Part shown: positions 1-9,113 of the stretch, piece after piece
Position numbering within the stretch: position 1 is the stretch's first letter
Layout of the letters: every line of letters begins with the position of its first letter
Assembly: GCA_947478865.1 (NCBI GenBank)
Contig: CANJXF010000023.1
Span: 1-61,705, forward strand
DNA from: Verrucomicrobiales bacterium
Lineage (GTDB): Bacteria > Verrucomicrobiota > Verrucomicrobiia > Limisphaerales > CANJXF01
Length of the DNA stretch: 61,705 bases
Direction: 5' to 3'
Translations under genes and position numbers: made by a program
Notes under the pieces: model-generated
Told to the model about the DNA's origin: nothing
Database searches by the model: none
What the model saw: only the letters and a program-made list of their open reading frames with translations

Positions 1-408
1 CGCCCGAAAAGATGGTGGGAAATCCCTGGCAGAAACGGTGTGTTTTGGTGCATCCACCAGATTAACAACCCGCCAAATTTGTACAATGCCAAACGGCGAT
101 TTGCGCACACTATTTGTTATCGCCCTGCCTTATCTAAGCGCCATTCGGGACTGACCCTTCTTTGAAAAATGGTTTAACCAAAGGAGCCGAACATCACATC
201 TTCAATGTCCTCAGCTCGTTTTCAAAGAACGAGCATAGGCATGAATAGATCCGAGTGCCTTTTCTTCCCAAAATCCTATGTGCTTTGCCTCGCCAGCAAA
301 GGCGACAGCATCGCGGTGCCCTTGAGCCCAAATAAATTGACATCATTCGTTTGCATAATTAGGGTCGATTAACCTCTCCGGGAAGTATCGATTGAGGTGT
401 TTTCAAGT
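1..408. other. Left-edge stretch without a recognised gene
   Basis: Two forward frames stay open from base 1 to about 155-165, so the 3' end of a gene lying outside the window is possible, but neither translation resembles a family I know. An inverted repeat (GCTCGTT at 214-220, AACGAGC at 228-234) could form a 7-bp hairpin with a 7-base loop. It has no T-tract, so I do not call it a terminator. The promoter of the LamG gene should lie in this stretch, but no convincing -35/-10 pair is visible. Confidence 0.3.
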
Positions 409-3400
409 ATGCTAAACAAATTTCCTCTATTGTTCCTGTTGTCCGGAATAATCGGCATCGAATCTTTTAGTCAGGCCAACTCCACTTGCCTTCCCGCACC
501 AGTCGGACTGGTCGGTTGGTGGAAGGGTGAGGGCACTACAGCGGATTCGGCGGGTGGAAACAGTGGCGTCAATCAACACGTCTCCTACACTAGTGGAGTA
601 GCCGGTCAGGCTTTTGCCTTTGACCCGGAAAATTTTCCTTACGGTACCTACAGCGGCATCCAGGTGGCTGACCGTCCGGCATATGCATTGACCAATGCTT
701 TGACGATCGAAGGCTGGATCAGGCCGCGCGGTGACAGCTACATCATTTTTAGCCGGGCCGACCATCGGCCGGGCTTGGATCCCTATCACCTTTCGATGCA
801 GGCCAACAACACGATCCACTTCGGCCTCAGCGACGCGGTCGGTAACAGCGCCATTGTGGAAACGGTGATCAGTTATTTTGCCTGGACGCATGTTGCCGCT
901 ACCCTGGATGGCAGTGCTGGAACGATGAGCATCTATACCAATGGCGTGCTTGCCGCACAAACGACCACCAGCGTCAGGCCATTCGCCGAGTTGCAGGCTG
1001 ATCAATCACCCGGCATAGGCATCGGGAACTTGAACGACGGTGGCAATAACTTCCCTTTCATCGGCGACATTGATGAAATTGGTTTGTATAATCGCGCTCT
1101 ATCCGCTCCGGAAATTCAATTCATCTACCAGGCTGGTAACGCGGGAAAATGCATGCCGAGCCCGACGACCCCTTCGGTTCTGCTGAATATTGATTTCGGT
1201 GCGGGTCAGGGTCCAAGTGCGAAAACCGGCCCGGCGGCCACCGGCCAAAACACCTCTGACTTCTGGAATTATTATTCGCGCGACGACGCCAGCGGCCATT
1301 GGAAAACGTCCGGTGCCTTGACAAATCTCAAACTCGCGGATGGCGCCGTCACCTCCGTTGGCCTGACTGTGGACAACGCCCCCGGCGCATGGGGAAATGG
1401 CTCCACCGATCCCATGTTCGTGGATTACATTTATCCCTTCGAGGGCAACGCTACCTTCACCATTACCAACCTGCCGCCGGGCAATTGGGACGTTTACGCC
1501 TATTCCACCGACGGCAATTACGAAGTTGTGTCTGGCGGTGTCAGCTACGGAATCAAATACGCACAGTCGCCCGAAGCGACTAATCCTCCAGTCTGGATCG
1601 AGGGGATTTCGCACGCGCGCTTTTTGAATGTTGCCGTGGCCGTTGGTCAACCGCTGGTGCTGACGGTGCGTCCCGGTCTCTACGGTTATGCCATCATTTC
1701 AGGGATGCAGATCGTCTCGAGGGCTGCCACCAATATTGTCCTGACAACCAATTGCGCGCCCGTGCCTTCGGGTCTTGTCGCGTGGTGGCCAGCGGAAGCA
1801 AATTCCAGCGATGTCGTCGGCAAGAACAAAGGCATGTTGTCTGGCGGAGCAAGCTATTCCCCCGGCGAAGTTGGACAGGCTTTCTCGTTCACTGATAGCA
1901 ACCCCGCTGTGTTAGCGACTGCTAGTTCCAATCTTAACGTGGGCAGTGGCGATGGTTTGACTCTTGAAGCTTGGATCAGCCCCACGGATATCACGCAGGA
2001 CCATCCCTTGTTCGAGTGGAATAATTCAACATATTGGGGCGTGCACTTTCACATTGCTCCCGGGCAGCCGACCAGTGGTTCGTCCGGTCCTGCGGGGCCC
2101 GGTCAGCTCTATGCCAACGTGGTGGATAGTTTCGGCGGCTGGCATCAATTAGGTTCGGCTGCGGGCGTGATCGCGCATAATGTGTTTCAGCATGTGGCGT
2201 TGACCTACGACAAGGCCTCGGGCTTGGCAACGATCTATCGCAACGGCCAGATCGTCAGCCAGCTAAGCTTGGGCAGTTTCACGCCGTTGACAACGTATGA
2301 TCTCTATCTGGGTCGGCGACAGGCCCCGAGCTCCGAGGCTGTCAGCTTCGCCGGATTAATGGATGAACCGGCGGTCTACAATCGCGCCTTGTCTCAGGCT
2401 GAAATTCAGGCTGTTTACAATGCTGGCACCGCCGGCAAATGCCAGCTGTCGCCACCGCCACGACCGTTCCTGCTGGATGTGGATTGCGGTGCGGGATTTG
2501 CCGGAAGCGCGAAGACCGGCCCCGCTGCTGTGGGCCAGACTGCCAGCGATTTCTGGAATTTTTTCACCCGCGAAGATGGCATCGGCAGTTGGCGAACCTT
2601 CGGTGCTTTAACCGGATTGAAACTAGCCGACGGCACCGTGAGCACCGTCGGGTTGACGATTGCCAATGCCCCCGGCGCATGGCCGAATGGTTCCTCCGAC
2701 GCGATGTTGAATGACTACATCTATCCTTTCGATGGTGGCAACGTCACCGTGACCATTACCAATCTTCCCGCCGGTCAATACGATGTCCTTCCCTACTCTC
2801 TAAATGGAAGCTACGAGGTAGCCAGTGGCGGGGTCAGCTACGGATTGAAATCTTGCTACGGATTTCCCGTTGCCAATCCACCTGTGTGGACGGAAGGCGT
2901 GCAATTTGTGCGCTTCACCAACGTGCAGATCAGCGCAGGTCAACCGCTTGTAATCACCGCCAAGCCGACCGCGACAGATGGCGCGCTGCTCTCTGGTTTT
3001 CAGATCGTTTCGGCCACCATAACAAACGTCGTGCTGGCAACCAATTGTACGCCTGCCCCTTCGGGCCTTGTCGCTTGGTGGCCTGCGGATGGGAATGCGG
3101 GCGATTTCGCCGGCAGCAACAATGGAACCTTGCAAGGGGGCGCAGCCTACGCTGCGGGCGAAAACGGACAGAGCTTCATTTTCAACGGCGCCGACAGCTA
3201 CGTCGAGGTTCCAGACGTTCCGGCGCTACGACTGACAAACGAACTAACGATTGAATTCTGGGTTAAGCGCCAGCATCCATTCGGTCCCGATTACATCGTC
3301 AACAGAGGCGGCGATTGGACTGGTGGAGTGTTGAATTACGGCGTGGCTATTGCGCCGCCGGAGTATGGGAACATTCTGCACTTCACCTTTGCAGGCGGCA

Positions 3401-4359
3401 ACCGTGGCACCGTCGCCATCGATGACCTCAGCTGGCATCATTGCGCGGTGGTGGCCCGGAATGGTGACAACGATGTGACGTTCTATGTGGATGGTTCGTA
3501 CCATCCCACCACCCACTTTGAAGGTGAAGGATTGGTCAACCTGTATCCCTCGACCAAGCCGTTGCACATCGGCGCGCAGGTGGATTCAGACACCGGTTGG
3601 TTCTATTACAGCAATACGTCGATTGATGAACTGGGCATTTATAACCGCGCCCTTACCGCTTTGGAGATTCAAGCCATCTATCGGGCTGGTTGCAAGGGCA
3701 AGTGCCCGCTGCCGCCAAATCAGCCACCCGTGGCCAATGCTGCCGCTACGGTTCCCGTTGTCATTTCATTGAACACCTCGAACGCGATTGTCGTGTTGGA
3801 TGGATCATTGTCCTCCGATCCGGACGGTGATCCCCTTCAATATCAGTGGTTTGAAAATAACGCCGTCTCCGCTACCGCCTCCGGGATCGTCTCGGTGGTG
3901 ATTCTGCCCGCGGGAACTAATTTGATTACATTGTCTGTCACCGATGGCCGGGCTGCAAACCAACAGACCATCCCGATAGAAGTGATAACAACGGCGCAGG
4001 CGGTTGAGCGTCTGATTGGTCTGGTGAACACAGATGTTTCAAAGGCGAAATCATTGGCGGCTACACTTTCGGCAGCGATAAAATCTATCGACCGCAATAA
4101 TCCCACGGCGGCCATCAACCAGCTTCAAGCATTCCAGAACCAGGTTCGCGCACAAATCACTCCGCTTGATTCCGCGTTGGCCGACACGCTGATCAACGAG
4201 GCTCAAGTCATCCTGGATATTCTTGCCGATGGCGATGCAAGCGTTGCTGACAAATTTGCGATAACGATTCATCAGACACCTGGCCATCTGCATCTGAAAT
4301 TTTCCACGAGCCACAGACAGATTTTCATTGTTGAGACATCCACGAACATGATCGATTGA
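409..4359 (+). CDS. Giant secreted LamG-repeat protein (C terminus cut by in-frame TGA)
   Basis: An exported surface or adhesion protein, probably carbohydrate-binding. I chose ATG 409 over GTG 397 because GAGG at 394-397 is placed as a ribosome site and MLNKFPLLFLLSGIIG starts a clean signal peptide. Counting residues from 397, the domains are: LamG 1 (about 28-250), an unnamed 180-residue module (260-445), LamG 2 (450-685), a second copy of the module (688-880), LamG 3 (883-1100), a PKD-like domain (1106-1198) and a FIMAH-like helical domain (1199-1284). Each LamG opens with NCxPxPxGLVxWW and closes with a YNRALS/T-type motif, as in verrucomicrobial LamG proteins. The last residues, ETSTNMID, match the start of the common C-terminal module that normally continues with W. 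Here that codon is TGA (4357-4359) and the frame stays open to 4464. The ligand is unknown. Confidence 0.85.
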   Translation: MLNKFPLLFLLSGIIGIESFSQANSTCLPAPVGLVGWWKGEGTTADSAGGNSGVNQHVSYTSGVAGQAFAFDPENFPYGTYSGIQVADRPAYALTNALTIEGWIRPRGDSYIIFSRADHRPGLDPYHLSMQANNTIHFGLSDAVGNSAIVETVISYFAWTHVAATLDGSAGTMSIYTNGVLAAQTTTSVRPFAELQADQSPGIGIGNLNDGGNNFPFIGDIDEIGLYNRALSAPEIQFIYQAGNAGKCMPSPTTPSVLLNIDFGAGQGPSAKTGPAATGQNTSDFWNYYSRDDASGHWKTSGALTNLKLADGAVTSVGLTVDNAPGAWGNGSTDPMFVDYIYPFEGNATFTITNLPPGNWDVYAYSTDGNYEVVSGGVSYGIKYAQSPEATNPPVWIEGISHARFLNVAVAVGQPLVLTVRPGLYGYAIISGMQIVSRAATNIVLTTNCAPVPSGLVAWWPAEANSSDVVGKNKGMLSGGASYSPGEVGQAFSFTDSNPAVLATASSNLNVGSGDGLTLEAWISPTDITQDHPLFEWNNSTYWGVHFHIAPGQPTSGSSGPAGPGQLYANVVDSFGGWHQLGSAAGVIAHNVFQHVALTYDKASGLATIYRNGQIVSQLSLGSFTPLTTYDLYLGRRQAPSSEAVSFAGLMDEPAVYNRALSQAEIQAVYNAGTAGKCQLSPPPRPFLLDVDCGAGFAGSAKTGPAAVGQTASDFWNFFTREDGIGSWRTFGALTGLKLADGTVSTVGLTIANAPGAWPNGSSDAMLNDYIYPFDGGNVTVTITNLPAGQYDVLPYSLNGSYEVASGGVSYGLKSCYGFPVANPPVWTEGVQFVRFTNVQISAGQPLVITAKPTATDGALLSGFQIVSATITNVVLATNCTPAPSGLVAWWPADGNAGDFAGSNNGTLQGGAAYAAGENGQSFIFNGADSYVEVPDVPALRLTNELTIEFWVKRQHPFGPDYIVNRGGDWTGGVLNYGVAIAPPEYGNILHFTFAGGNRGTVAIDDLSWHHCAVVARNGDNDVTFYVDGSYHPTTHFEGEGLVNLYPSTKPLHIGAQVDSDTGWFYYSNTSIDELGIYNRALTALEIQAIYRAGCKGKCPLPPNQPPVANAAATVPVVISLNTSNAIVVLDGSLSSDPDGDPLQYQWFENNAVSATASGIVSVVILPAGTNLITLSVTDGRAANQQTIPIEVITTAQAVERLIGLVNTDVSKAKSLAATLSAAIKSIDRNNPTAAINQLQAFQNQVRAQITPLDSALADTLINEAQVILDILADGDASVADKFAITIHQTPGHLHLKFSTSHRQIFIVETSTNMID

Positions 4360-7287: not shown

Positions 7288-7425
7288 TTATGCGGAGCGA
7301 TTCGCCGGGGCGGAAACGGAAATGAGCGTGGAGAGTGGTGACCGCGACAAACCGATGTTCGCGGCCACCACTCCCCACGCCCGGGCGGCGGCTTGAGTGA
7401 TTTTGTTAACCAGCCGGCCGGTCAT
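7288..7425 (-). CDS. Small 45-residue protein, translationally coupled
   Basis: A short frame beginning MTGRLVNKITQAAARAWGV. Its ATG (7423-7425 on the complement) overlaps the TGA stop of the preceding 114-residue gene as ATGA, the classic coupling arrangement. The product is basic and Ala/Ser-rich with no transmembrane helix or known motif. The overlap and same-strand position in front of the antiporter gene are the only evidence that it is real. A longer start at 7554 in the same frame would overlap most of the 114-residue gene and is unlikely. Function unknown. Confidence 0.45.
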   Translation of the reverse strand: MTGRLVNKITQAAARAWGVVAANIGLSRSPLSTLISVSAPANRSA

Positions 7426-7766
7426 GCGGCCTCCACGAGCAAGATTTCGCTGCGGAGGCGCACTTGGTTTTGCTTTTGAAATTGCAAGCGCGCGCGCAGC
7501 GCTTTTTCTTCCAGCAGAGTCGGGAAGAGCAAGATCGGAAACGGCGTGGTCCACGCCAGCGCGGCGGCTTCATTGGCGGCGCGGCGCAATGGCGCGCTCA
7601 GCTCGGGCTGGGCGGCGTTGTTCAAGACGCGGCGCAACAGGCGGCTTTTTAGTTTTTCGAATTCTGTTTCTTCCACGGCGCGGAACGGCGTCCGGAGCAA
7701 GGGTGCTAGGTCGAAGCGCGTTTCGCGCGCGAACTTGGCCGGCAGTTTTTGATTTGTTTTTTTCAT
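7422..7766 (-). CDS. Conserved-looking small protein of unknown function
   Basis: 114 residues, no signal peptide, strongly charged. It opens MKKTNQKLPAKFARETRFDLAPLL and has a helical middle rich in Arg and Glu, including LEEKALRARLQFQKQ. A good ribosome site (GAAAGAAG on the minus strand) sits about 9 bases before the ATG, which supports this start. I recall similar small proteins in Verrucomicrobiota but cannot assign a family. It heads a minus-strand run: this gene, the coupled 45-residue frame, the antiporter and waaA. About 50 bases upstream is a perfect intrinsic terminator preceded by a folded segment, so expression of this gene may be controlled by attenuation. Confidence 0.6.
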   Translation of the reverse strand: MKKTNQKLPAKFARETRFDLAPLLRTPFRAVEETEFEKLKSRLLRRVLNNAAQPELSAPLRRAANEAAALAWTTPFPILLFPTLLEEKALRARLQFQKQNQVRLRSEILLVEAA

Positions 7767-7817: not shown

Positions 7818-7854
7818 AAAAAACCCACGATTGACGGGCAATCGTGGGTTTTTT
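7818..7854 (-). terminator. Perfect intrinsic terminator upstream of the small-gene/antiporter operon
   Basis: A 16-bp perfect inverted repeat (7818-7833 and 7839-7854) with a 5-base loop ACGGG. The arms begin with A6 and end with T6, so the hairpin is a textbook terminator in both directions. It lies between two divergent genes, where no annotated upstream gene would need it. Read on the minus strand it ends an RNA coming from about 8010 and sits about 50 bases before the 114-residue gene. That fits an attenuator or the end of a small RNA. Confidence 0.8.
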
Positions 7855-7903
7855 AAAAATCTTAGTTGGTTTGTTTTAGAAGATTCTTACCACGTTGCCA
7901 GAT

Positions 7904-8009
7904 GCCTGGTGTGAGCGCCAAATCGGCATCACTCCTACGGAGCAACCGGCGCACAGGCTAATTTTTACTGTAAACGTATTCTGCATCTTCGAGGCACGAA
8001 GAAACAGTA
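7904..8009. ncRNA. Candidate structured RNA / cis-regulatory leader
   Basis: In a 317-base gap between divergent genes there are nested complementary segments. GCCTG 7904-7908 pairs with CAGGC 7954-7958, GCGCC 7915-7919 with GGCGC 7948-7952, and inner CTCC 7932-7935 with GGAG 7939-7942. A second element pairs TACTGT 7966-7971 with ACAGTA 8004-8009 around CTTCG 7987-7991 and CGAAG 7997-8001. On the minus strand both elements are followed by the intrinsic terminator at 7818-7854 and then the small-gene/antiporter/waaA run. This order resembles a riboswitch or attenuator. It matches no riboswitch class I recognise, and the strand is inferred. Confidence 0.35.
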
Positions 8010-8084
8010 GACTTCGAGTGTTGTCAAAGGATTTTTTTCAAGCAACGGGCTTGAGCCGATGCATCCTAATGGTAATGTCATATT

Positions 8085-9113
8085 GTGACGGGTGATTCTA
8101 TTGAAGCCAGTAAGCCATTGAAAATGGTCAGTTGCGGTGCATGTAACTCGAAGAATTTTATTTCCGGCGAGTTGCCCACCTTTGAAACCGTGCCTTGTTC
8201 CAAGTGCGGTCATCCAGTGATGTTGCCGGTAACTTTCCGTCAATTTGAATTACGCGCGGTGATTGCTTCGGGAGGGATGGGAACGGTTTTTAGCGCGTTC
8301 GACGTAAAGTTGCAACGCGGTGTCGCTTTGAAAATGATGAAGCGGGAAATGGCGGAGGATCCCGAGGTTCTGGAAAGCTTTTATCGCGAAGCCCGCGCCG
8401 GGGCGTCGCTCAATCACAGCAACATCATTCACATCTACACCTTCGATGAATTCGAAGGCCAACCCTACCTCGTCATGGAACTGGCCAACAACGGCAGTTT
8501 AGATACGCGCATCACCTTGGAGGGGCGCCTGCCGGAACTCGATGTCCTCGATGTTGGAATCAAAATGGCCTCGGCACTCGGGACGGCGTATCGCCACAAT
8601 TTGCTCCATCGCGATATCAAGCCGGGAAATATTTTGTTCAACAACGATACGCCGCCGGAACCAAAGCTGATTGATTTCGGTTTAGCACGTGCGGCTGAGG
8701 TCGAGGTGGATGCCTCGAGTGAATCCATCGTCTGGGGAACGCCATATTATGTCGCCCCGGAAAAAATCAAACGTGAGCGCGAAGATTTCCTTTCGGACAT
8801 GTATAGCCTGGGCGGCACCCTGTATCACGCGTTGACCGGGCACGTTCCGTTTGAGGCTTCCACTGTGGAAGACTTGGTGGCAGCGCATGTTCACACTCCT
8901 TTGACTCCGCCCAACCACGTTGTTTTGGAAATTACGCAACGGACCAGCGATGCATTGGTGCGAGCGATGGCAAAGGAGCCAGCGGAGCGTTTCGCATCGT
9001 ACGACGATTTTGTGATGGAATTGACTTTTGCCCGCACCGAGTTGCTGATGATGCACGTCGAGCGCAACAATGAGCCGGAAAAGGGCAATACCAAGAGTTG
9101 GTGGCGTCGTTAA
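8085..9113 (+). CDS. Soluble Ser/Thr protein kinase with N-terminal zinc ribbon
   Basis: A Hanks-type protein kinase of 342 aa that should phosphorylate Ser/Thr of unknown cytoplasmic targets. An N-terminal zinc-ribbon-like module has Cys17-x2-Cys20 and Cys38-x2-Cys41. The kinase domain follows with the Gly loop ASGGMGTVFSA (61-71), Lys83 in ALKMMK, HRDIKPGN (175-182), DFG (197-199) and APE; all catalytic residues are present. There is no transmembrane helix or extracellular sensor, unlike many bacterial PknB-type kinases. The start is GTG 8085; ATG 8124 just before the first Cys pair is an alternative, and neither has a strong ribosome site. The gene is monocistronic and followed by a convergent terminator. 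Confidence 0.9.
   Translation: MTGDSIEASKPLKMVSCGACNSKNFISGELPTFETVPCSKCGHPVMLPVTFRQFELRAVIASGGMGTVFSAFDVKLQRGVALKMMKREMAEDPEVLESFYREARAGASLNHSNIIHIYTFDEFEGQPYLVMELANNGSLDTRITLEGRLPELDVLDVGIKMASALGTAYRHNLLHRDIKPGNILFNNDTPPEPKLIDFGLARAAEVEVDASSESIVWGTPYYVAPEKIKREREDFLSDMYSLGGTLYHALTGHVPFEASTVEDLVAAHVHTPLTPPNHVVLEITQRTSDALVRAMAKEPAERFASYDDFVMELTFARTELLMMHVERNNEPEKGNTKSWWRR

Follow-up and report, generated by a model that had tools for sequence, protein, structure and literature searches.

An intergenic region in the window (the whole 61,705-nucleotide stretch of DNA analysed) probably carries a ribosome-mediated transcription attenuator that takes a roll-call of several charged tRNAs and controls the gene for a 114-aa orphan protein. 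We also lean, with less assurance, towards reading the leader peptide as a census, in which selection maintains one or more codons for each of some nine amino acids while leaving their positions free. Such a leader would report when any of these charged tRNAs runs short and turn on an order-specific small protein, making it a cis-acting general amino-acid-starvation switch.

Leader reading frame and exclusive hairpins

The region is divergent, as had been predicted, with a kinase gene (8085-9113, plus strand) on one side and the 114-aa gene (7422-7766, minus strand) on the other. Read along the minus strand the order is TTGACA, a 17-nt spacer, TTTCTT, a leader ORF, an AT-rich stretch, the terminator and the 114-aa gene. 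The leader ORF (7986-7876) was missed by the original prediction and explains the architecture. The features are listed below.

8022-8027, minus strand: -35 box TTGACA, exact in 105 of 120 homologous leaders and about 41-44 nt upstream of the leader start codon
7999-8004, minus strand: -10 box TTTCTT, placed relative to the -35 box with a 17-nt spacer
7876-7986, minus strand: leader ORF of 36 aa, MQNTFTVKISLCAGCSVGVMPIWRSHQASGNVVRIF, with ATG at 7986 and TAA at 7876; all nine roll-call residues present
7972-7978, minus strand: segment 1, ACGTTT (codons 4-5), proposed anti-antiterminator from the window fold, with segment 2 as partner
7904-7958, minus strand: mid-leader hairpin region inside the ORF, holding the Trp codon 7920-7918
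7890-7899, minus strand: segment 2, antiterminator strand GGCAACGTGG, in the last ORF codons; able to pair with the terminator 5' arm in almost every homologue, with covariation
7837-7848, minus strand: segment 3, terminator 5' arm CCCACGATTGCC, common to antiterminator and terminator
7833-7824, minus strand: segment 4 of the terminator, pairing with segment 3
7818-7854, minus strand: intrinsic terminator with a 16-bp perfect stem, a 5-nt loop and a U-run
7422-7766, minus strand: regulated gene, encoding the 114-aa orphan protein with three predicted helices; family present in 182 of the 320 order genomes examined

The perfect 16-bp terminator described in the original prediction was recovered as an inverted repeat at 7818-7854. 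The hairpin (7854-7818) had an MFE of -20.8 kcal/mol and a z of -6.7 with 0 of 200 shuffles as stable, and it occurs as one copy only in the genome. It ends 51 bases before the start of the 114-aa gene at 7766, in agreement with the predicted distance of 50 bases to a small gene, and is separated from the leader ORF stop (7876) by about 20 AT-rich bases. To place the terminator across the family we used the 138 distinct copies of the 114-aa gene with sufficient upstream DNA. A strong terminator was found within 200 nt upstream of the start in 130 of these copies as compared to 0 of 138 shuffled sequences, and 9 of the 12 stem pairs covaried in the homologue alignment. A hairpin between the leader stop and the terminator was unsupported among homologous leaders (mean z -0.2).

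The end of the ORF carries GGCANCGTGG, which complements the terminator 5' arm with one bulge. In 85 aligned leaders 91.6% of the antiterminator cells were paired, as compared to 34-44% after sliding by 1-3 columns, and the covariation score exceeded all 500 shuffles. At one antiterminator pair a leader C always occurred with an arm G (15/15, p=8e-4), and divergent leaders such as L027, L051, L117, L123, L132 and L138 carried joint changes in segment 2 and the arm. Across 129 sequences leaders paired better with their own arm than with swapped arms (23.3 vs 21.6, sd 0.17; 0 of 20000 permutations, which ignore relatedness). Absence of covariation among homologous leaders had been put forward as the finding that would overturn the original prediction, and these leaders do covary. 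The 2:3 and 3:4 pairings are thus both seen in the aligned sequences, and therefore one segment (3) serves two exclusive hairpins. Together the conserved terminator, the exclusive covarying antiterminator and the fixed place before the same gene strongly support an attenuator, one of the readings originally offered.

Folding within the rest of the leader was also assessed. Of the two nested-stem elements predicted earlier, the one at 7904-7958 was weak when folded alone (z -1.1), but homologous mid-leader regions gave better folds than dinucleotide-shuffled controls (mean z -1.96, n=93); it lies inside the leader ORF. The second element, at 7966-8009, does fold (z -2.7) but did not hold up as an RNA element, as it spans the -10 box (8004-7999) and the presumed transcription start, and much of it is presumably untranscribed because of this overlap. 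Segment 2 was paired within the isolated leader with a mean probability of 0.69; its main partner was the 33-nt stretch that opens the ORF (0.51 average). The pairing of segments 1 and 2 (ACGTT:AACGT) appears in the window fold and its covariation was weak; a 1:2 hairpin acting as an anti-antiterminator, with termination as the default, is likely.

The promoter boxes would place the transcription start near 7992. In most homologues the -10 box ends 12-16 nt upstream of the ATG, and the leader ORF is therefore almost leaderless. At 120 loci the ATG of the leader ORF lay about 5-9 nt from the inferred start and a clear ribosome-binding site was absent. A near-leaderless leader ORF is unusual where the timing of translation matters.

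The leader ORF was found in 123 of 129 homologues and measured 32-41 codons in nearly all of them. All three stop codons were used (TAA 54, TGA 41, TAG 28), suggesting that the stop codon and not a base motif is under conservation. The peptide was poorly conserved, with a pN/pS of 0.57 in 35 independent pairs as compared to 0.31 in the downstream gene. Silent sites changed more slowly in the leader ORF (0.24) than in the gene (0.44), as expected for a peptide-coding RNA that also needs to fold. From these patterns we infer that the leader ORF is translated. In one leader (L017) TGA replaces the conserved TGG (Trp) codon and truncates the ORF, while the hairpin partner has changed and the pairing is kept; this may be a sequencing error, a broken copy or a real variant.

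One-of-each composition of the leader peptides

The leader peptides share little sequence. Even so, W, H, C, internal M, K, I, Q, L and R each occur in almost all of them. These residues comprise both of the sulphur ones and the side-chain-nitrogen ones except Asn, plus Ile and Leu. Since relatedness can mimic a one-of-each signal, expectation was taken from simulated evolution along the gene tree using each position's own residue frequencies. All nine residues were present in 82 of 120 leaders as compared to 15.5 expected (sd 6.7, maximum 35 in 300 simulations). Eight or nine were present in 111 of 120, and 38 of 120 missed at least one. No all-nine excess was seen in translations of the two alternative frames or in the N-terminal 36 residues of the downstream protein.

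Measured singly against the tree simulation, the strongest signals came from H (114/120 leaders, z 5.5-6.5), C (114/120, z 4.4-5.3) and W (110/120, z 3.9-5.1). M, I, L, Q and K were also above expectation (z 2.3-3.7) and R was marginal. The number of different residues per peptide was 16.9 vs 15.4 simulated (0/600). The signal persisted after removal of the final 8 codons, where the ORF overlaps segment 2, as the proposed stalling mechanism requires.

Placement was assessed in 78 peptides less than 60% identical to one another. His occurred in the C-terminal half only in 30, in the N-terminal half only in 33 and in both halves in 9, and was in neither half in just 6 as compared to 18 expected (p=3e-8). 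Cys, Trp, Met and Ile followed the same presence pattern in these peptides, and D, E, Y, F, T, S, N and P showed no such pattern. A sister-pair relocation test weakly favoured the census.

The nine-residue set had originally been chosen from these very data; it was then fixed and applied to nine leaders fetched later. These contained 75 presences vs 63.5 expected (sd 2.8, 0/5000) in a small hold-out of n=9, some of which resemble the discovery set. Control residues in the same nine leaders gave 79 presences vs 74.7 (sd 2.2).

The downstream gene and its family

A DNA search within the same order gave matches in 74 of 196 genomes. Thirty aligned loci had in common TTGACA, ATGAA, GGCANCGTGGG and a near-invariant terminator, with an ORF running from the ATG to a stop just past GGCANCGTGGG, and the next gene in these loci encoded the same 110-125-aa protein. 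Among 286 sampled genomes of the class, all 34 with a family match fell in this order. Named records were Limisphaerales, Pedosphaera and 'Verrucomicrobia subdivision 3' MAGs, plus a few that were oddly labelled. Sequence searches with the 114-aa protein found no Pfam, NCBIfam or PDB relative, and a search of plasmids found no relative either. The structural model had a pLDDT of 83.7, mostly above 90 for residues 31-110, and a fold search with it returned no match.

The original prediction set the element ahead of an antiporter/waaA operon. This is true at this locus but incidental: at 80 related loci the downstream neighbors included an antiporter in about 9, waaA in about 8 and a convergent murA-like gene in about 18. 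As the antiporter and waaA are only occasional neighbors, the conserved target is the 114-aa gene, and antiporter control was rejected as the conserved purpose. On the other side of the attenuator, the Ser/Thr kinase encoded at 8085-9113 (plus strand) has an N-terminal zinc-ribbon-like stretch and is encoded divergently to the attenuator at about 39 of the 80 loci; the common upstream region might couple expression of the two. Elsewhere in the window a 1320-aa ORF (397-4359, plus strand) contains repeated LamG-like segments (CTPAPSGLVAWWPADGN...) and its product is a probable large extracellular protein.

Nearly all of 20 divergent paralogues of the gene were without such a terminator. Paralogues of about 107 aa (L254-L263; genomes G176, G050, G040, G081, G131, G154, G049, G063 and G179) had TTGACTaaacaGACAAC-like repeats upstream. 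These genes follow TetR-like genes and precede RND-type (AcrA/AcrB-like) efflux genes in about 6 of 10 loci and thioredoxin in about 3, the TetR, efflux and thioredoxin names being taken from reading the translations and not from a profile search. Their position in TetR-efflux and TetR-thioredoxin operons suggests a role in stress response, and the 114-aa product is probably, judging from these operons, a small stress-response protein.

Proposed mechanism, alternatives and known systems

In the proposed mechanism RNA polymerase would start a few bases upstream of the 36-codon ORF. A ribosome that reached the end of the ORF would cover segment 2, leaving segment 3 to pair with segment 4, and transcription would stop at 7818. 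With the ribosome absent, segment 1 would likely pair with segment 2 and the 3:4 terminator would again form. A ribosome held upstream of segment 2 would instead allow 2:3 pairing, block the terminator and let the 114-aa gene be transcribed. As the leader retains one or more codons for each of some nine amino acids, a shortage of any one of these charged tRNAs should stall the ribosome; the composition is seen directly in the peptides, and the sensing, stalling and read-through are proposed. Against this roll-call, the model in PMC1183508 implies lower sensitivity for leaders in which each amino acid has just one codon than for those with tandem codons. The 38 leaders that miss at least one of the nine residues, the weak 1:2 covariation and the stop codon of L017 also count against it.

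The same attenuator could instead sense general translation arrest, for example by ribosome-binding antibiotics as with toiL and whiB7, with the varied composition merely spreading the stall sites. In toiL stalling anywhere has been proposed to suffice (PMC12121999), and paralogues of the product are encoded in TetR-efflux operons. We nevertheless consider this reading unlikely, as antibiotic stalling needs no one-of-nine codons and the exemption of D, E, Y, F and T would go unexplained. Trp was the best-placed residue, found at positions -14 to -16 in 81 of 120 leaders vs 12.8 by chance, as expected of an attenuator whose sole regulatory codon is the conserved Trp lying 6-8 codons upstream of segment 2. 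His and Cys are equally strictly present, however, 10 of 120 leaders are without Trp, and both tandem Trp codons and downstream trp genes are absent. In one branch the Cys and Trp codons were swapped (GC..IWQR vs GW..ICQR) and the stem seems to have been kept, making a purely Trp-specific device unlikely. On this evidence Trp as the sole signal is very improbable.

Its own promoter and terminator and its compactness would also suit a stand-alone small protein gene or a free small RNA, the latter having been suggested originally. The terminator consistently accompanies the same downstream gene, as seen in 130 of 138 copies, the peptide is poorly conserved and the antiterminator strand would have no role, leaving such a unit with very little to recommend it. 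The structured leader with exclusive hairpins could likewise belong to a riboswitch, another of the original suggestions, or to an autoregulatory leader to which the 114-aa protein binds. This is barely credible given that no invariant unpaired core was found outside segments 2-4 and that both the reading frame and the residue census have been maintained, neither of which would be required of a ligand-binding RNA; the conserved element appears from its substitutions to be a translated ORF and not an aptamer-like core. The comparison with Rfam 15 gave no match to the window at the curated score, in line with the original statement that no known riboswitch class was recognised. Sub-threshold scores rested on the terminator, the best being His_leader RF00514 at 28.6 bits vs a gathering score of 49, with the match covering the terminator and spacer and not the ORF. 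6S RNA (RF00013) was rejected as an identity, as the 6S RNA of the genome lies at G000:C40:11131-11311 (L033) and scores 68.5 bits, above the Rfam cut-off.

Textbook amino-acid attenuators respond to a single amino acid, or to a few from the same pathway, through repeated codons. If the census reading of the leader is true, a peptide selected for breadth makes a compact general starvation sensor, and the composition signature could be used to find or test other broad sensors of the whiB7 type. It would also offer an initial clue to the function of an orphan protein family found in more than half of the genomes (182/320) of a large, mostly uncultured order, and add an RNA family that Rfam does not contain.

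In architecture the element forms a new family of a known kind, a variant of trp/whiB7-type attenuation. The literature searched held no precedent for multi-amino-acid leaders or for leader peptides in Verrucomicrobia/Limisphaerales, which is weak evidence as subscription papers were mostly outside the search. Like E. coli trpL and Salmonella hisL, the element has a leader ORF, segments 1-4 and an exclusive antiterminator and terminator just upstream of the regulated gene. Unlike them it has one codon each of about nine amino acids and no single-codon run, segment 2 overlaps the end of the ORF, and a biosynthetic operon is absent; the target is an orphan gene and tandem codons matching a pathway of the operon were not found in the leader peptides. 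The logic of trp attenuation has been modelled (PMC1183508), and the proposed mechanism is that logic with many amino acids in place of one.

The whiB7/wblC attenuator of Actinobacteria, as described in the passages of PMC11550727 consulted, also combines a uORF, a Rho-independent terminator and an antiterminator, and responds to translation stress, antibiotics and amino-acid starvation. It belongs to another phylum and regulates another gene, and those passages report no residue census; the protein downstream of our leader had no Pfam match and so no whiB-family assignment. The toiL uORF lies upstream of E. coli topAI, and stalling at any of various points within it has been proposed to be sufficient (PMC12121999). 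That leader unmasks a ribosome-binding site and acts with Rho, whereas an intrinsic terminator and antiterminator are used here. A small orphan gene under a translation-monitoring, uORF-dependent attenuator is also found in the DUF1127 gene of Sinorhizobium meliloti (PMC12218461). The S. meliloti element needs C-rich codons at the start of its uORF (PMC12218461) and has no intrinsic antiterminator in common with ours, and its DUF1127 protein is unrelated to the 114-aa protein as far as the lack of a Pfam match for the latter can tell.
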